From a virus, in the IMG/VR virus record IMGVR_UViG_3300023181_000082, positions 1 to 22,636 of that record: a stretch of DNA of 22,636 bases; one strand, 5' to 3'. The position numbers and the translations under genes were made by a program. Shown here one piece after another: positions 9,041 through 19,055 of the stretch. How positions within the stretch are numbered: position 1 is the first letter of the stretch; each line of letters starts with the position of its first letter. The notes beneath the pieces were generated by a model. The model ran no database searches and was not told the DNA's origin. It saw nothing but the letters and a program-made list of their open reading frames with translations.

Positions 9041-9448
9041 ATGACTATTTTTACTCGCGGCTCTACTCGTGTACATCGTTCTGTACGCCTTGTTAACCAG
9101 ACTGGTACGGCTATTACTGTCCCGCTTCCAGCCGGTGCTAAGGTAACTCGTATACACGCTCGTAATAAGGGCACTGTTGCCTTTAACTTGAGTGCTGGTA
9201 ACGTTGTATCTGGTGCTCAGTATCTGGCAGCTACGGCTGTTCCAGTTGCTTCTAGTGCTACGGATGTTACGACTGCAGGTATTATCAGCGAAGCAGCTAT
9301 CTCAGTAGCAGTTAGCATCGTTGCTTCTACTCTGTATCTCACGTTGTCTGCTGCTCCAGGTGCTCCGGGTGCTGATATCGTTATCGATTATCTCGAAACG
9401 CTTGAAAGCCTGCCTGCTCCGACTGTTAACAACCCTGTAGCATACTAA
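9041..9448 (+). CDS. Last late gene: unknown, possible decoration-type protein, 135 aa
   Basis: ATG preceded by AAGGAA about 10 bases upstream. The protein is rich in Ala, Val, Thr and Gly, with almost no charged helical segments, and looks like repeated beta strands (TAITVPLPAGAKVTRIHARN, then NLSAGNVVSGAQYLAATAVP). A hydrophobic Ala/Val/Ile run near residues 85-105 is probably strand rather than membrane. Such proteins are often capsid-decorating or head-fibre subunits; that is inference from composition and position at the end of the late region. Confidence 0.68.
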   Translation: MTIFTRGSTRVHRSVRLVNQTGTAITVPLPAGAKVTRIHARNKGTVAFNLSAGNVVSGAQYLAATAVPVASSATDVTTAGIISEAAISVAVSIVASTLYLTLSAAPGAPGADIVIDYLETLESLPAPTVNNPVAY

Positions 9449-9485
9449 GCTATTAGTCTGCTACATCCTGTATAGTTATTCCAGT

Positions 9486-9522
9486 CTCTACCAGTGTAAA
9501 AGCTGGTAGGGATACAATTTTT
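9486..9522 (+). terminator. Terminator-like hairpin after the late genes
   Basis: CTCTACCAG (9486-9494), 8-nt loop, CTGGTAGGG (9503-9511) form a 9-bp stem with one T-G pair. ATTTTT (9517-9522) follows after 5 bases. It lies 37 bases beyond the stop of the last late gene. The gap between stem and U-run makes it less than ideal for intrinsic termination, but the place is right. Confidence 0.5.
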
Positions 9523-9831
9523 CGTGAGGGTATCTAACAAACAACCGCGAGCAAGTTCCCCCATAGCCCCATCGAGAAACGCAAGTCCTTATAATATGCC
9601 GACAATGCCAACTGACATTCATCTAGCCTATGTCCAGCCTATGACGGTATAGCCGGAGGGTAGCACCTCTTATATGGCTTTAGCTGTTACATGTCTATCT
9701 CCTATGGTTATAGCTAGGATTAGCTAGCTTGTATCCGGGCATCTATATCCCTTATCGGATTAGAGCCGGTTGTCTGTCCTTGCTTAGATCATAGTGATTT
9801 GGCTTAGTCAATAGCCGAGATACAGCATTCT

Positions 9832-9853
9832 ATGCCCTATATGGATAATAAAC
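9832..9853 (+). promoter_or_regulatory. Repeated promoter-like motif, copy 2
   Basis: ATGCCCTATATGGATAAT at 9832-9849 is identical over 18 bases to the copy at 2766. It overlaps a small hairpin (GCAT, TCT, ATGC; 9826-9836), and a partial inverted echo, TATCCATAT, lies at 9902-9910. No gene follows for 960 bases, so transcription from here would cross the A-rich stretch and all six inverted repeats. It could serve replication priming or the leader array. Confidence 0.5.
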
Positions 9854-10004
9854 ATACCCTAACCGATATCGTTTGGTATCAGTACCACTATCGAAGATAG
9901 CTATCCATATATCAATATAAATAGAATATAATAGATATAGAACTATATAAGAACATATAATAACCACCCTATATACTGATGCACCATATAGTAAGAGAAT
10001 GAAT

Positions 10005-10068
10005 ATACATAGATCAATACATAGATATCACATAGATAGATATAGAGAATACATAGGAATACATAGAC
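10005..10068 (+). repeat. Helically spaced ACATAG short repeats (iteron-like)
   Basis: Five ACATAG copies start at 10007, 10019, 10030, 10051 and 10061, mostly within ATACATAG(A/G). The steps are 12, 11, 21 and 10 bases, close to one or two turns of the helix, so the copies face the same side of the DNA. They sit in the A-rich stretch of the gene-free junction. T7 has its own short repeats near its ends, used in concatemer processing or packaging; a replication-origin or protein-binding role is an alternative. The A-rich composition raises the chance rate of such words, which limits confidence. Confidence 0.5.
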
Positions 10069-10187
10069 ATATAGCCGATAGAAATGAATAGGATATAGAT
10101 AGCTATAAGCTGGATATAATCTAGATAGAAATAAGATAATGAAATCAATGATATATGAGATAATTGGGTATCTATTCATTTTATCAG

Positions 10188-10216
10188 TTGACGGATTGAA
10201 TGAGATAGTAGATATT
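10188..10216 (+). promoter_or_regulatory. Candidate sigma70 early promoter 1
   Basis: TTGACG (10188-10193), a 17-base spacer and GATATT (10211-10216). The predicted start, near 10223, is just ahead of the first inverted repeat. The position at the start of the early region fits a host-polymerase promoter such as T7 A1-A3. A further TTGACT lies at 10256 with only a weak TATGGC 17 bases on. Confidence 0.5.
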
Positions 10217-10236
10217 CAAATCACACAAGACGGAAG

Positions 10237-10333
10237 GCACTTAGCCAACTAGCTCTTGACTAGCTTAGCTAGGGATATTATGGCTCTTAATAGAGCTTGA
10301 CAAGGTAGGCCACAGTGGCTTATAGCTAAGTGC
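10237..10333 (+). other. Structured element A: closed by a perfect 9-bp stem, three inner hairpins
   Basis: GCACTTAGC (10237-10245) pairs with GCTAAGTGC (10325-10333). Inside are CTAGCT/AGCTAG (10249-10254 with 10267-10272), GGCTCT/AGAGCT (10282-10287 with 10292-10297, one G-T pair) and TAGGCCA/TGGCTTA (10306-10312 with 10316-10322, one G-T pair). This gives a cloverleaf-like four-way fold of 97 nt. It is not a tRNA: arm lengths and loop sequences do not fit. Promoter 2 lies inside it, so it could act as DNA rather than RNA. Confidence 0.5.
10297..10326 (+). promoter_or_regulatory. Candidate sigma70 early promoter 2
   Basis: A perfect -35 box TTGACA (10297-10302), an 18-base spacer and TATAGC (10321-10326). 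The predicted start, near 10333, coincides with the 3' end of structured element A, so a transcript would begin just before element B. This is the best host-type promoter in the window by eye. Confidence 0.55.
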
Positions 10334-10352
10334 ATATAGGTAATGGCTGTTA

Positions 10353-10439
10353 GCCGCTGGGATTACAACCAGTAGATAGTGCGAGTAACGTACTGTCCTT
10401 AGGAACCGGTCAATATAGCTACCTAGCCGATTGAGCGGC
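10353..10439 (+). ncRNA. Structured element B (candidate leader RNA fold)
   Basis: GCCGCT (10353-10358) pairs with AGCGGC (10434-10439). Inside is a 9-bp hairpin GATAGTGCG/CGTACTGTC (10375-10383 with 10389-10397, two G-T pairs, loop AGTAA) and a weaker TTAGG/CCTAG arm (10399-10403 with 10422-10426). It contains TACCTAGCCGA (10420-10430), which also occurs in the structured element at 15656. No match to a known RNA class is recognised. Confidence 0.42.
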
Positions 10440-10453
10440 AAAAGGTTATCCAT

Positions 10454-10504
10454 CCATATACTAAGGGCGCGTTAATAACGCCTATGTAAATCCTTAGTAT
10501 ATGG
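10454..10504 (+). ncRNA. Structured element C: perfect 13-bp inverted repeat
   Basis: CCATATACTAAGG (10454-10466) and CCTTAGTATATGG (10492-10504) are perfect inverted copies, enclosing a second inverted repeat GCGTTA/TAACGC (10469-10474 with 10476-10481). The arms carry TATATGG, part of the repeated promoter-like motif, in both orientations. It may be an RNA hairpin, a DNA cruciform or a palindromic protein-binding site. Confidence 0.55.
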
Positions 10505-10506
10505 CA

Positions 10507-10575
10507 CAGCACAATCTATCAGTCCGCTCTCAACGGCCGCATGGGTATGGTAACGGTTTAGCCGGGATTGTGTTG
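10507..10575 (+). ncRNA. Structured element D (candidate leader RNA fold)
   Basis: CAGCACAATC (10507-10516) pairs with GATTGTGTTG (10566-10575), 10 bp with one G-T pair. Inside, CGGC (10534-10537) pairs with GCCG (10561-10564). An alternative pairing, CTCAAC (10529-10534) with GTTGAG (10572-10577), would break the closing stem, so two competing folds are possible. Confidence 0.4.
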
Positions 10576-10697
10576 AGATATAGAGCTACTAAGCAAGGTA
10601 GCTGGACTATTGAGCCATTAAGGAATTATCACTCTTAACCGTAGGATAATCCAAGGCTTAACTTATCCAGTCTCTAAGCTGAACTAGCCTATATCTC
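10575..10697 (+). ncRNA. Structured element E: 9-bp closing stem with three inner hairpins
   Basis: GAGATATAG (10575-10583) pairs perfectly with CTATATCTC (10689-10697). Inner arms are AGCTACT/GGTAGCT (10584-10590 with 10597-10603, one G-T pair), TTAAG/CTTAA (10618-10622 with 10634-10638) and GGATAA/TTATCC (10644-10649 with 10663-10668). The 123-nt layout repeats the closing-stem-plus-three-arms plan of element A without sharing its sequence. Confidence 0.48.
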
Positions 10698-10702
10698 TTG
10701 TG

Positions 10703-10801
10703 AGGTTAGTTGATAGGATATCAATACAAGATACCGAACGCATTGCGATGTAGGTATGAGCAGGGAGCGTAAAGACCACTGTATATCCTATCTACTAACC
10801 T
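10703..10801 (+). ncRNA. Structured element F: 18 of 19 bp closing stem just before the first early gene
   Basis: AGGTTAGTTGATAGGATAT (10703-10721) pairs with the segment at 10783-10801, with one T-T mismatch. Inside, ATACC/GGTAT (10731-10735 with 10753-10757) encloses CGC/GCG (10739-10741 with 10745-10747). The 3' arm ends 4 bases before the GGGAG ribosome site of the first early gene. A long imperfect duplex here fits an RNase III processing site like those in the T7 early transcript; a separate RNA product is also possible. Confidence 0.55.
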
Positions 10802-10817
10802 AACGGGAGTGTTTATC

Positions 10818-10976
10818 ATGCTTTTTGCTGGTATGGTATCGGTTGTATGTGTAGCGTTTGGTTGCGCTATGCTACGCAAGAACATTAATGAGTACATGTT
10901 CATTCGTCATATGAACAATGTTCAAGAGATTAAGCGTAAACGTGCGGCTCTTGCTGCCTTCACCACAGGAGAATAA
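10818..10976 (+). CDS. First early gene: small membrane protein, 52 aa
   Basis: ATG at 10818 with GGGAG 8 bases upstream, just after structured element F. Residues 2-18 (LFAGMVSVVCVAFGCAM) form one membrane segment, followed by a basic cytoplasmic-type tail (EIKRKRAALA). The next gene starts 5 bases after the stop. As the first product after the early promoters it is a candidate host-takeover or anti-defence peptide (the T7 counterpart position holds gene 0.3), but nothing in the sequence shows the function. Confidence 0.66.
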   Translation: MLFAGMVSVVCVAFGCAMLRKNINEYMFIRHMNNVQEIKRKRAALAAFTTGE

Positions 10977-10980
10977 GACT

Positions 10981-11505
10981 ATGACTAAAGCTAATCAGAC
11001 ACCGGCTGTTACAGCCACTATTGCGCTTATCCTTAAGAAGAAGGATATCGCTACACGTACTAAGGCGCTCAAGACGAGTGCGGCTGATATGCAGCATGAG
11101 GTGCATGTACTTGCGTGCTCTGTGCTGGCTTTCGTTGCCAAGCATCGCAATATCAACGTGCTTACACAGTTCCTTGACGCCGTGCCTGATATGGTGCGCG
11201 TTAACAGTCTGCAATTGTGGTTCGAGACATTCGGCGGACTGACGTACAGCAAGGAGAAGGACACTAAGGGCTGGCACTTCGATAGCTCCAAGAAGGTACA
11301 GCTAGGTGAGGCTATGGTTAAGCCCTTCTGGCGCTTCAAGGCTCTTGAGGGCGCACCTTATCAGCCTATCGACTTCGATGCTTGGTCTAATCAGACTATC
11401 AAGAAGCTTGAGAAGGACGCTAAGGCGACCGGCAAGGACTACTCCGCCATTATCATGGCGCTTAAGACACACAAGGATGACACTAAGACTGGTTTCTCTC
11501 ACTAA
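10981..11505 (+). CDS. Early protein of unknown function, 174 aa
   Basis: The ATG at 10981 has AGGAG 9 bases upstream; an in-frame ATG at 10918 lies inside the previous gene and has no such site, so it was not used. The protein has a helical N-terminus (ATRTKALKTSAADMQHEVHV), a central region with HRNINVLTQFLDAVP and FETFGGLTYSKEKD, and a basic C-terminus. The HEV.VLA...L.....I..L..FL..VP pattern is reminiscent of a widespread uncharacterised early/middle phage protein. No catalytic motif is seen. GC-ending codons are more frequent than in neighbouring genes, suggesting high expression or different ancestry. Confidence 0.75.
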   Translation: MTKANQTPAVTATIALILKKKDIATRTKALKTSAADMQHEVHVLACSVLAFVAKHRNINVLTQFLDAVPDMVRVNSLQLWFETFGGLTYSKEKDTKGWHFDSSKKVQLGEAMVKPFWRFKALEGAPYQPIDFDAWSNQTIKKLEKDAKATGKDYSAIIMALKTHKDDTKTGFSH

Positions 11506-11509
11506 GTCT

Positions 11510-11572
11510 GTTGTGCTCATAGGCTAGTCTTGTCCTGCAATGAACCGCGACGACTAGCTTAATGAACATAAC
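11510..11572 (+). promoter_or_regulatory. Long imperfect hairpin, RNase III-site-like (R2)
   Basis: Three stacked stems: GTTGTG with CATAAC (11510-11515, 11567-11572), TCAT with ATGA (11517-11520, 11562-11565) and AGGCTAGTC with GACTAGCTT (11521-11529, 11552-11560), 19 bp in all with one mismatch and one bulge, and a 22-nt loop. It fills the gap between two early genes. The size and the interrupted-duplex shape match T7 early RNase III sites. Confidence 0.58.
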
Positions 11573-11596
11573 CTCTTTATACTTGGAGTACACGTC

Positions 11597-12539: not shown

Positions 12540-12609
12540 AGCGTTCATAGGCCAGTGCTAATGGTGCAGAGTTTATCGCCCGAGCACTGGCTCAATGAGC
12601 ACTAACGCT
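12540..12609 (+). promoter_or_regulatory. Long imperfect hairpin, RNase III-site-like (R4)
   Basis: GCCAGTGCT (12551-12559) pairs perfectly with AGCACTGGC (12583-12591). An outer stem, AGCGTT (12540-12545) with AACGCT (12604-12609), closes the structure across an internal loop. It lies between the 42-aa and 66-aa genes and has the same two-level plan as R2 and R3. Confidence 0.58.
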
Positions 12610-12625
12610 CTTAATGGAGAATATT

Positions 12626-15032: not shown

Positions 15033-15551
15033 ATGTCTGATGAAGCATTGCTGGCCGAACTCGGCCTTGGTACTACCGCTACTGAAACTGCTACTCCGGC
15101 TGTAGGCGCTGAGCCTAACGCTGCTGAGAACGTTGCAGCTACAGAAGGTGCAGAAACTGCCGAGAAGGCTAAGCGCGCTCCCCGCGTAGAGATTAAGATC
15201 AATAAGACTTCGACTGGTGTCGGCCTTCTGCCTGCTCGTGTTGCCTTTGGTGGTGGCGGCGGTCGTCAGGGTAGCAAGTATCCATTCGAAGACCTTACTG
15301 CTCCTACGAAGAATGAAGCTGGTGAAGTTACCGGCTACTCGTTCTTTGACATTCTGCTTTCTGATGTAGAGAATGCAGATGAGAAGAAGCTGCAGGGTGC
15401 TATCCAGGCTGCTGTTGCTCAGAAGAACAAGCAGGAAAAGGAAGCTGGCACGAAGACGCATTATGTGTCCCGTACTAAGCTCGATGATGCTGGCGCATAC
15501 ATCGGCGCTTCTGTGTATCGTGTTGACGATACGATTGAAGACGCTGAATAA
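15033..15551 (+). CDS. Acidic-tailed middle protein in SSB position, 172 aa
   Basis: ATG behind AAAAAGGAA. The N-terminal 50 residues are Ala/Glu/Thr-rich and acidic. A basic segment (KAKRAPRVEIKINK) leads into a glycine patch (VAFGGGGGRQGSKYPFEDL), then GYSFFDILL, a charged helix and a C-terminal YIGASVYRVDDTIEDAE. The GSKYPF...SFF...VYRV layout recurs in small phage proteins of unknown function. The place (first middle gene, after the early cassette) and the acidic tail would suit a single-stranded-DNA-binding protein like T7 gp2.5, but I do not see a clear OB fold, so the name is withheld. Confidence 0.7.
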   Translation: MSDEALLAELGLGTTATETATPAVGAEPNAAENVAATEGAETAEKAKRAPRVEIKINKTSTGVGLLPARVAFGGGGGRQGSKYPFEDLTAPTKNEAGEVTGYSFFDILLSDVENADEKKLQGAIQAAVAQKNKQEKEAGTKTHYVSRTKLDDAGAYIGASVYRVDDTIEDAE

Positions 15552-15576
15552 TCTAGCTTAGGCTAGAATACATAAA

Positions 15577-15606
15577 GCTAGCAGGTTCTTAATTGAGCCT
15601 GCTAGT
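15577..15606 (+). other. Strong 12-bp hairpin
   Basis: GCTAGCAGGTTC (15577-15588), loop TTAATT, GAGCCTGCTAGT (15595-15606), with two G-T pairs. It lies 26 bases after the stop of the 172-aa gene and only 6 bases before the large structured element. No U-tract follows, so it is more likely a processing or protective structure than an intrinsic terminator. Confidence 0.6.
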
Positions 15607-15612
15607 CGTACT

Positions 15613-15762
15613 TATTGATACCGAGAGGCAGCGAAGGGATAAGGGTGTTTGCAGATACCTAGCCGAATGGCGCTACCTTTACTACTGCAATAGTGAATGC
15701 ACGATGTAGGCTTAATTACCTACACGGAGCAGATTGCTGTTTCTCGGTATCAATATGTTTTT
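15613..15762 (+). ncRNA. Candidate structured RNA closed by a 22-bp stem and followed by a U-tract
   Basis: Bases 15613-15634 pair with 15734-15755 over 22 positions, all Watson-Crick except three G-T pairs; the outer 14 bp (TATTGATACCGAGA with TCTCGGTATCAATA) are perfect. Inside are TTGCAG/CTGCAA (15649-15654 with 15685-15690), enclosing a small GCC-GAAT-GGC hairpin, and TGTAGG/CCTACA (15705-15710 with 15719-15724). A U-tract (15758-15762, then CGTTTT) follows the stem directly. The element fills the 234-base gap between two middle genes and has no good ORF. It could be a stable phage RNA, or an unusually large RNase III/terminator structure. No known RNA class is recognised. Confidence 0.62.
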
Positions 15763-15785
15763 CGTTTTAACCCAAGGAGAGTGAC

Positions 15786-16214
15786 ATGACTGCTATAAAG
15801 CTTGCAGGATTTGCTAATTGCGTGTCTGATGCCGACAAGCGGAAACTGTATGATGCACTCATAGCCTTTAGGGTTGCAGGAGTACAAGTGCAGCCTAATT
15901 CCATTGTTGGTAATTCTGGCGTAATAGAAATGATACGCACAGTTGCGTGGTGTAACGAGAGATTTACCTATTATCTTTGGTACTTTCATGATGCTTTGTA
16001 CGGCAAACCTTGGGAAGAGCAGGTAAAGATCATTGCGGCTGAGGTAGGGCCGACACCAGAATTTCACCCACTTATCACATGGGCATGGTTGACCTATGAT
16101 GGGTGGGTTAAGTATGTGCAGGTACATAAATCTGCACCTATAGACGTAGAAGCATATATTAATGCGCACCTCACTGCTACAAATCTGACTGAGGTGCATC
16201 TAAAGGAGTTCTAA
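15786..16214 (+). CDS. Unknown middle protein, 142 aa
   Basis: ATG at 15786 behind AAGGAGAGTGAC, one of the strongest ribosome sites in the window, right after the structured RNA element. The protein is soluble, mixed alpha/beta and rich in Trp and Tyr (RFTYYLWYFHDALYGKPWEE; PLITWAWLTYDGWVKYVQVH). In T7 the endonuclease I gene lies between the SSB and lysozyme genes, but I see no conserved nuclease motif here, so no function is assigned. Confidence 0.7.
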   Translation: MTAIKLAGFANCVSDADKRKLYDALIAFRVAGVQVQPNSIVGNSGVIEMIRTVAWCNERFTYYLWYFHDALYGKPWEEQVKIIAAEVGPTPEFHPLITWAWLTYDGWVKYVQVHKSAPIDVEAYINAHLTATNLTEVHLKEF

Positions 16215-17429: not shown

Positions 17430-17571
17430 CGAGTGTGGTCCTAATGACGTGGTGATCCGTTACACACCGGAACAGATAGATGCTATGTCAGACCAGCAAG
17501 TCAGTGATAATCTAGCATACAATGAAAGCCTTGAGAAGCGCGGGTGCGCTGTTCCCAATAAATCCAAATAG
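17359..17571 (+). CDS. Rz1-like outer-membrane lipoprotein spanin (o-spanin)
   Basis: 70 aa, starting with GTG at 17359 behind AGGAGG 9 bases upstream. The signal peptide MQKSSLFLLLLLVSGCAS has a clear lipobox (VSGC) with Cys16 as the lipidated residue. The mature part contains two or three cysteines and few prolines. The first 71 bases overlap the Rz-like gene in a different frame, as in classical Rz/Rz1 pairs. The lipoprotein would span the periplasm with the i-spanin at lysis. Confidence 0.82.
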   Translation: MQKSSLFLLLLLVSGCASVGPKTNECGPNDVVIRYTPEQIDAMSDQQVSDNLAYNESLEKRGCAVPNKSK

Positions 17572-17578
17572 GTGCAAT

Positions 17579-18976
17579 ATGTCTGCAGTATTATATCAAA
17601 TCAAAGCATGTGCTAAAGATGCTGGAGTAACTGGCTTTGATCAATGGAATGTTATTGATCTTAGCAAGTATGGATTTAATTATATTGCAGGCGGTTGCTA
17701 TGGAGCAGTTTATAATCACCCTACTGATCCTAATAAGGTGATTAAAGTAGGTATGAAAGATGGCGATGGGTGGCCTAAATATGCCACCTATTGCTTGCTC
17801 AATAAAGAAAATGATGACGATCATCTATTGAAGGTGTACTCATTGCACTTGTTTAAGGATATGTATGTAGCTGAGATTGAACGTCTTGAAACATATAATT
17901 ATTCTGATGACCACTATACCGACGCGCAATACGAGCATGTTAAAATGCGTGCTAACGGCCCACTAGAGCTAGTTCGTCTTTGGAATACAATAGGTGATTA
18001 CAATGACATGCATCTCGGTAATGTTATGCTTAGAGGTAATACTCTAGTTGTTACAGATCCTTATGGCTACGTTACACCAAAAGAAGCTATCTATGATGTT
18101 TCATTCGGTATGGGCCAAATAGACAAATACTCACTTAGTAAGCACTTGGAAGACAAGCGGCTTTTAAAGGAGCTACAGAGTGCAGAAAGAGAAGTGGTTA
18201 ATCACCGCGCAATCTCTGCCCCTCGGCGGCAAGAAGAAGGTATTGCACTGTGGCCAAAGCCCATCTATGACAGTGTACAACACGCTCAAAGGATGGCGGG
18301 GATACTGCCACAGATGCCACGAGACTGTTTGGGAGTCCCGACAATCGATGCTATCATTAGCACAATTGTCCAAGCCATTAGAAACGGCAACAATAACCTC
18401 GCGTTTGCCTGCGGATTACAGTTCGAATTTCGTGGACACGTCCCTTATATCCGTAAGTGCCCTGCTGTGGTATGCTCAAGCAGGTATATCAGAGACTATG
18501 AGAGAAGAATACAAGCTAGGGTACAGCGAGAGCTTGCGCCGGGCCGTGATCCCTTTATACATGCCAACTACGCAGAACTTGAACGGCGTATGCTTGCGAA
18601 AATTGGTGGCTGGGGACTTAGGCCCGAAGTATTTGGTTCGGCAAATAGAGCCATTGCCTTTCCTGTCTATAGAGACCATTTCCTCGTGGCAGATACCGGA
18701 CCCGCAATTCAGCCTGATAATAACGGAGGACGCTCTATCCGCTATAAGGGTAGGACAATTCCTGCCAAGTGCATCGCTTCTAGGGACGTCCTTAAGCGAC
18801 AAGCTGATGCCGATGTTAAGCCACAGACTGCCAAACAACAAGCCAGTAGGCATATGGCTGGACCCGGACAAAGCAGGCAACAAAGGCACTATAAACTTAT
18901 GCAAGCGCCTATCCCTCCTTGGCATAAGCTGGTCGATAATATCTTCGACAAAGGACCCAAAGAACCACACGGATAG
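17579..18976 (+). CDS. T7 gp0.7-like protein kinase with long overprinted C-terminal extension
   Basis: 466 aa from ATG 17579 (the in-frame ATG at 17522 lies inside the Rz1 gene). Residues 37-60 read AGGCYGAVYNHP.. then VIKVGMK: a glycine-rich loop and ATP-binding Lys56. They align closely with T7 gp0.7 ([22 protein letters not shown]). The catalytic loop NDMHLGNVML gives Asp143 and Asn148, and VVTDPYGY gives the metal-binding Asp160; T7 has FDMHSGNIM and ITDP. gp0.7 phosphorylates host RNA polymerase, RNase III and other proteins and shuts off host transcription. The kinase core ends near residue 200. The remaining 265 codons overlap the primase gene in another frame and have no recognised domain. 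The location beside replication genes rather than early genes is unusual. Confidence 0.82.
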   Translation: MSAVLYQIKACAKDAGVTGFDQWNVIDLSKYGFNYIAGGCYGAVYNHPTDPNKVIKVGMKDGDGWPKYATYCLLNKENDDDHLLKVYSLHLFKDMYVAEIERLETYNYSDDHYTDAQYEHVKMRANGPLELVRLWNTIGDYNDMHLGNVMLRGNTLVVTDPYGYVTPKEAIYDVSFGMGQIDKYSLSKHLEDKRLLKELQSAEREVVNHRAISAPRRQEEGIALWPKPIYDSVQHAQRMAGILPQMPRDCLGVPTIDAIISTIVQAIRNGNNNLAFACGLQFEFRGHVPYIRKCPAVVCSSRYIRDYERRIQARVQRELAPGRDPFIHANYAELERRMLAKIGGWGLRPEVFGSANRAIAFPVYRDHFLVADTGPAIQPDNNGGRSIRYKGRTIPAKCIASRDVLKRQADADVKPQTAKQQASRHMAGPGQSRQQRHYKLMQAPIPPWHKLVDNIFDKGPKEPHG

Positions 18977-19055
18977 AGAAATATGGAAGTACTTAACCGG
19001 AGATACGGTGACACCCGTGCAAGATTACGCGCCGCCTTCGAACGTAGTATTATAG
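18180..19055 (+). CDS. DNA primase (zinc-binding and Toprim domains)
   Basis: 291 aa. The start is the GTG at 18180 with AAAGGAG 7 bases upstream, inside the kinase reading frame. The N-terminal zinc-binding region has KKVLHCG (His23/Cys24) and WRGYCHRCHE (Cys43, Cys46). The Toprim fold has LIITEDALSA (Glu183) and GIWLDPDKAG (Asp228, Asp230), the metal-binding residues of the catalytic site. It makes RNA primers for lagging-strand synthesis. Unlike T7 gp4, primase and helicase are separate genes, as in some other T7-supergroup phages. The 3' end overlaps the HNH gene by 73 bases. About 91% of the gene is also open in the kinase frame. Confidence 0.88.
   Translation: MQKEKWLITAQSLPLGGKKKVLHCGQSPSMTVYNTLKGWRGYCHRCHETVWESRQSMLSLAQLSKPLETATITSRLPADYSSNFVDTSLISVSALLWYAQAGISETMREEYKLGYSESLRRAVIPLYMPTTQNLNGVCLRKLVAGDLGPKYLVRQIEPLPFLSIETISSWQIPDPQFSLIITEDALSAIRVGQFLPSASLLGTSLSDKLMPMLSHRLPNNKPVGIWLDPDKAGNKGTINLCKRLSLLGISWSIISSTKDPKNHTDREIWKYLTGDTVTPVQDYAPPSNVVL

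Follow-up and report, generated by a model that had tools for sequence, protein, structure and literature searches.

The segment ahead of the first early gene in a T7-like phage encodes a structured leader RNA, far larger and more elaborate than the leader of T7 itself. As had been proposed from the sequence, it is not an ordinary leader: its fold is kept by compensatory changes on the transcript strand, leaders of this kind occur in six groups of related phages, and small modules recur in them across genera. The region is most likely the ∼600-nt 5′ leader of an early transcript made by the host RNA polymerase, an assignment well supported by sequence; it suggests that infection yields, as its first product, a phage RNA that has not been described. 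A description of such leaders was not found in the literature searched, which comprised papers available without subscription.

Leaders of T7-like phages are commonly regarded as promoter plus spacer sequence. Here, at least six phage groups maintain a large, protein-free RNA fold in the segment that is transcribed first, and some of these phages grow on laboratory hosts, including strains of Rhizobium etli and Rhizobium phaseoli as well as Agrobacterium tumefaciens C58. This makes testable whether host takeover can begin with an RNA before any protein, and whether this RNA matures through RNase III, which in T7 is boosted by a phage kinase. Besides, the covariation-supported stems and the modules can now serve as queries elsewhere.

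Genome context and position of the leader

The window, i.e. the whole stretch of 22,636 bases analysed here, is a fragment of a T7-like phage from soil, deposited in IMG/VR. As in T7-type phages, its terminase large subunit matches the Terminase-T7_RNaseH-like family (PF22530; 2.2e-31), and it also codes for a homologue of the T7 protein kinase 0.7, a DnaB-like helicase and a primase. The closest relative is IMGVR_UViG_3300031722_000052 (hereafter L003), with a terminase identity of 91%, compared with 70% for RHEph02 (Autographiviridae, Cuernavacavirus) and 62% for the Agrobacterium phages Atu_ph02/03. A single-subunit RNA polymerase (PF00940), a hallmark of this family, was present in all four relatives searched, including the record of L003 (E 2e-93 to 1e-107).

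The ORF that resembles the kinase remains open over ∼800 nt of the primase gene, which is read in a different frame (17522-18976 and 18180-19055). The frame of this ORF is likewise open over the primase in the record of L003 (46% identity, E 6e-62), which possibly reflects a long gene overlap or else an artefact of conserved primase DNA.

The features surrounding the leader are listed in Table 1. Position 1 of Palo, whose terminal repeat was predicted by its depositors with PhageTerm, aligns via L003 to a conserved element downstream of the late genes. This element is probably the left end of the genome. From there to about 10180, upstream of the promoter, the sequence is AT-rich (about 26-33% GC). 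Taken as a class, promoter-like matches are no more frequent in this region than expected by chance (8 found vs 5.9 expected). A box of like plan to that of the listed promoter nevertheless marks the 5′ edge of the leader in several genera, namely in Palo, L047, Atu_ph02 and Atu_ph03; the shared plan consists of a −35 hexamer, 16-18 bases, TATAAC or GATATT, and then TCAATCAC or similar. Transcription would be expected to start at about 10223. The placement of the units between host-type promoters and the first early ORF, as originally predicted, is supported by the conserved promoter box, here recognised from sequence, and is the position that the early leader holds in T7. Equally, the claim that no protein gene lies among the units holds, as the region contains no plus-strand ORF of at least 60 aa. 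In a consensus scan, we found no terminator that would end the leader ahead of the gene.

Table 1. Coordinates of the leader, its units and neighbouring features in the window.
Feature	Position	Strand	Remark
Intrinsic terminator after late (structural) genes	9484..9513	+	consensus scan; late genes end at 9448
Probable left genome end/start of terminal repeat	9532..9570 (conserved element about 9516-9567)		element kept in nearly all relatives
Host-type promoter, TTGACG-17-GATATT plus TCAAATCACAC box	10188..10227 (hexamers 10188-10216)	+	scan
Unit A, alternative cloverleaf-like fold closed by 9 bp (10237-10245/10325-10333)	10237..10333	+	z −2.2; weak
Structured spacer (predicted unit B)	10334..10453	+	no single closing stem identifiable
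Unit C, hairpin of about 13-14 bp enclosing a smaller hairpin	10454..10504	+	pairing probability 0.97-1.00; z −4.8
Unit D, domain closed by 10 bp (10507-10516/10566-10575)	10507..10575	+	covariation with L003
Unit E, long irregular helix, closing stem 10575-10583/10689-10697	10575..10697	+	z −4.7; covariation with L003
Unit F, two-turn helix (8 bp, U-U mismatch, 10 bp; 10703-10721/10783-10801), candidate RNase III site	10703..10801	+	covariation
Outer extension of F, CUCUUGU (10695-10701) with ACGGGAG (10803-10809)	10695..10809	+	all 7 pairs form in window and L003
First early ORF, 52 aa, probably a small membrane protein	10818..10976	+	sequence reading; counterpart aligned in L003
Early gene, conserved family, no Pfam match	10981..11505	+	anchor for locating relatives
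Second element of the same plan, closing stem of 24 bp (one mismatch), variable domain, U-run after	15610..15758	+	z −7.5 (15545-15790)

Folding of the leader and covariation with its closest relative

The leader structure is real, resides at the RNA level and is under selection. On the plus strand, the segment 10237-10801 folds with a minimum free energy of −197 kcal/mol against −159.6 ± 6.6 for dinucleotide-shuffled controls, none of which (0/100) came as low, so that structure is significant (z −5.68); the minus strand has a z-score of −3.57. Among 40 contig windows of 565 nt (15 shuffles each), the segment ranks second.

The original prediction envisaged six closing stems that tile the region from A to F almost without gaps. 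Stems C, D, E and F are present as described and all lie in the full-length minimum-free-energy fold, with pairing probabilities near 1 for C and F, so that the tiling is solid from C to F but overstated for A and B. The wording ‘almost without gaps’ is right for D and E, since these share the base G10575. Unit A does contain its 9-bp stem and forms a cloverleaf when folded alone, but it is a weak alternative, whose closing pairs have a probability of 0.00 in the full-length fold. The 6-bp closing stem proposed for unit B has no distinct identity, being one of ten equally poor candidates of 6-7 bp. Unit E, also predicted to be cloverleaf-like with inner hairpins, turned out to be a single unbranched irregular helix of 40 pairs. 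As to the cloverleaf units, ARAGORN reported no tRNA or tmRNA gene in the window.

For covariation, stems were defined from the window alone and then checked in L003, i.e. in a comparison of two sequences only. Units A to C could not be aligned to L003, and no counterpart of C was found there, whereas D, E and F could be followed. In their closing stems, 12 pairs were changed on both sides and yet remained paired in L003, while one more was lost. G-U pairs help to maintain the stems in this comparison. All ten pairs of unit D hold, five of them with changes on both sides, as its stem went from CAGCACAAUC/GAUUGUGUUG in the window to CAAGAGCAGU/ACUGCUCUUG in L003. In unit E, the closing stem (9/9 pairs, one changed on both sides) and the helix as a whole (40/40, seven changed on both sides) are kept. 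When the partner strand was slid by 1-3 columns, only 29-39% of positions in E paired, with at most one two-sided change, and D behaved likewise. In control shuffles, 8/500 and 14/500 reached the observed values, which is modest, as only two sequences are compared.

At the apex of unit E lies a 40-nt core (10616-10655) that is identical in the window and L003. It is confined to these two phages in our searches: a covariance model of unit E (R1) had no hits beyond the window and L003, and when the core was run over IMG/VR as a degenerate pattern, the record of L003 alone was returned. Within unit E, a pseudoknot between UUAAG and CUUAA, both arms of which are invariant, is possible.

MAFFT sets gaps wrongly in the variable arms of F and in those of a hairpin module described below, and the stems of both were therefore compared arm by arm. 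Unit F forms 18 of 19 pairs and thus a helix of about two turns, as found at T7 cleavage sites. In L003, its lower 8 bp and the U-U mismatch are kept, whereas the upper helix has a new sequence: seven of its pairs differ on both sides, of which six still pair and one is lost. An F-type helix with the same U-U mismatch occurs in the Cuernavacavirus leaders of RHEph02, I38 and N37.

Leaders of related phages and their shared modules

Neither megablast nor blastn of the leader against phage records returned a match, and leaders of relatives were therefore located through the early protein encoded at 10981-11505. This protein, in itself, is conserved in rhizobial and Stappia phages and distantly in Vibrio and Pseudomonas phages. 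The leaders obtained fall into six groups: the window and L003; RHEph02, TM33, I38 and N37; Palo and L047; L051 and L052; L053 and RHEph15; and Atu_ph02 and Atu_ph03. In all of them, the leader measures 600-900 nt.

Consensus folds were scored against column-shuffled alignments, a procedure that loses dinucleotides and hence inflates the z-scores. On the plus and minus strand, respectively, these were −4.9 and −2.6 for the window and L003, −14.2 and −8.2 for the four Cuernavacavirus leaders, −11.2 and −5.8 for Palo and L047, −6.3 and −2.2 for L051 and L052, −7.7 and −4.6 for L053 and RHEph15, and −4.5 and −0.1 for Atu_ph02 and Atu_ph03. The signal is thus stronger on the plus strand, that of the early transcript, in six of six groups. 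Units D to F alone scored −6.4, and coding-sequence controls ranged from −0.2 to −3.6. The AT-rich upstream control (9830-10180) reached −5.5 on the minus strand, which warns of inflated scores and probably stems from simple AT inverted repeats. Single-sequence z-scores were strong in some leaders and weak in others (L051, −0.6; X3_9, −0.8; Paso, −1.7); sliding windows of 160 nt broke up the domains and told nothing useful about most leaders.

The phage labelled ‘Nostoc phage NMeng1’ (L038, OQ540924.1) clusters with Atuphduovirus Agrobacterium phages by both its terminase (62.8% identity to that of the window) and its early gene, and its declared cyanobacterial host looks doubtful.

While the leader groups do not align as wholes, pieces are common to them. 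A hairpin with a 5x5 internal loop, UANNA facing GAAAC, occurs once per leader in ten leaders, near-duplicates counted; it was found ten times on the plus strand and never on the minus strand (0.44 expected), and its outer stem covaries. Similarly, a hairpin with a GGAU loop was seen 11 times on the plus strand and not at all on the minus strand (0.7 expected). Since both motifs were derived from these very leaders, their counts are descriptive and no blind test. Neither hairpin is found in the leader of the window, but L003 has both alongside D, E and F, and thereby links the leader of the window with the leaders found in Rhizobium and Agrobacterium phages. Judging by these shared pieces, the leaders look modular.

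Two candidate identities of such pieces were dropped. The GGAU hairpins were considered as CsrA-type decoys, yet their loop register presumably differs from that of CsrA sites. The L003 segment CUGAUAAGCGAAAC was considered as a hammerhead ribozyme, with a core that we take not to fit this class and no match in Rfam.

Proposed processing and possible roles of the leader RNA

The best explanation, which as one claim we give about an even chance, is that a T7-like phage (Autographiviridae) infecting rhizobia or related bacteria makes a structured 5′ leader with the host polymerase, that unit F is cut by RNase III, and that the structured RNA left behind has a further job. The leader would be made ahead of any phage protein and fold as a train of independent RNA domains. 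Host RNase III would then cut F, a two-turn helix that adjoins the first gene and whose sequence is free to change. Cleavage would expose the Shine-Dalgarno sequence of the first ORF, and the units up to E would remain as a separate structured RNA of about 0.5 kb. The invariant loops (the core of E and, in relatives, the UANNA/GAAAC and GGAU hairpins) may serve to bind a factor of the host or to dock onto each other.

Several points count for RNase III processing. The Sinorhizobium enzyme requires longer double-stranded RNA than that of E. coli (PMC6121014); in T7, RNase III is stimulated by protein kinase 0.7 (PMC4858673), which has a homologue in the window; and covarying stems of comparable length are also found between other early genes. 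The early leader and RNase III sites of T7 (0.3, 1.1 and others) offer the closest comparison, as they share the location between left-end host promoters and the first early gene, the kinase in a T7-like genome, and irregular two-turn helices adjoining early genes. However, the T7 leader is 428 nt long with folding z-scores of −2.9 (plus) and −0.4 (minus), in contrast to the multi-domain fold of 600-900 nt described here, and conserved loop modules like the present ones are not needed by processing sites. An array of structured RNAs or a relay of processing sites, as first suggested, is plausible, though only F, its counterparts and some intergenic stems have the look of double-strand processing sites. 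Specific loop sequences are kept in unit E and in the two recurrent modules, and these would be needless at a bare cleavage site. Given that processing leaves the invariant core of E and the modules unexplained, we infer a further binding or docking role for them, in cis or in trans.

A more tentative reading takes the leader chiefly as a trans-acting structured noncoding RNA, e.g. a decoy or inhibitor of a host factor or defence, whose position ensures that it is synthesised first. The core of E that stays invariant in two phages while the surrounding leader is largely re-written would fit this, as would the two small modules kept across genera despite changing flanks and the 600-900 nt of leader in every group. 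Yet, as no terminator closes the leader ahead of the gene, a discrete RNA would still have to be processed out of it; besides, unit E is confined to two phages. Taken further, the leaders might form a superfamily of modular phage RNAs of 0.5-0.9 kb with exchangeable modules, made by each T7-like phage of rhizobia and relatives as the first product and acting in trans on the host before any phage protein, a possibility that we likewise hold to be doubtful. Such RNAs would recall GOLLD and ROOL (and OLE), which also span hundreds of nt with elaborate covarying structure, occur in phages and are of unknown function (PMC12286853). Unlike these, the present RNA is the leader of an early transcript, has no tRNA genes nearby and is modular rather than one fixed fold. 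Besides, neither the window nor three relatives matched any Rfam family, GOLLD, ROOL and OLE included, at the gathering score of the covariance models, and 9950-10830 gave no match at E ≤ 1.

It seems improbable that the leader is a cis-acting antitermination element like the put RNA of phage HK022, through which host RNA polymerase would read across the early region. Here too, a structured RNA directly follows the early promoter, and further structured stems in the early region could act as terminators; however, no put-like pair of stem-loops or other put feature was recognised, and put sites are about nine times shorter than this leader.

Equally improbable is a cis-acting translation switch, in which F and its overlap with E would open or close the Shine-Dalgarno sequence of the first ORF upon cleavage, ligand binding or a change in temperature. 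The outer extension of F covers this sequence in the window and L003 (pairing probability 0.10-0.97), with a 5′ arm that shares bases with the 3′ arm of the closing stem of E. Nevertheless, the extension was seen in these two phages only and in none of the other leader groups, and units A to D would be needless for such a switch.

Finally, a DNA-level feature (cruciforms, or a signal for entry, replication or packaging) would suit the vicinity of the probable genome end, but is very improbable given the preference for the plus strand in all six leader groups, the maintenance of stems by G-U pairs, and the distance of several hundred bases between the leader and the terminal repeat predicted in Palo and Paso. 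The pRNA of phi29, about 174 nt long, is likewise a structured phage RNA encoded close to a genome end, yet the phages studied here have a T7-type terminase and terminal repeats, the RNA amounts to 600 nt, and no link to packaging was seen.

Further structured elements lie between the early genes. In the closing stem of the one at 15610-15758, changes are two-sided in RHEph02, L047 and Palo and one-sided in the record of L003; it is possibly a giant terminator or a processing site. A strong hairpin at about 15577-15606 precedes it. In addition, two like intercistronic hairpins, at 11508-11575 and 12543-12610, carry CATAGGCyAGT and AATGA on their 5′ and 3′ sides, respectively, and are candidate processing sites.
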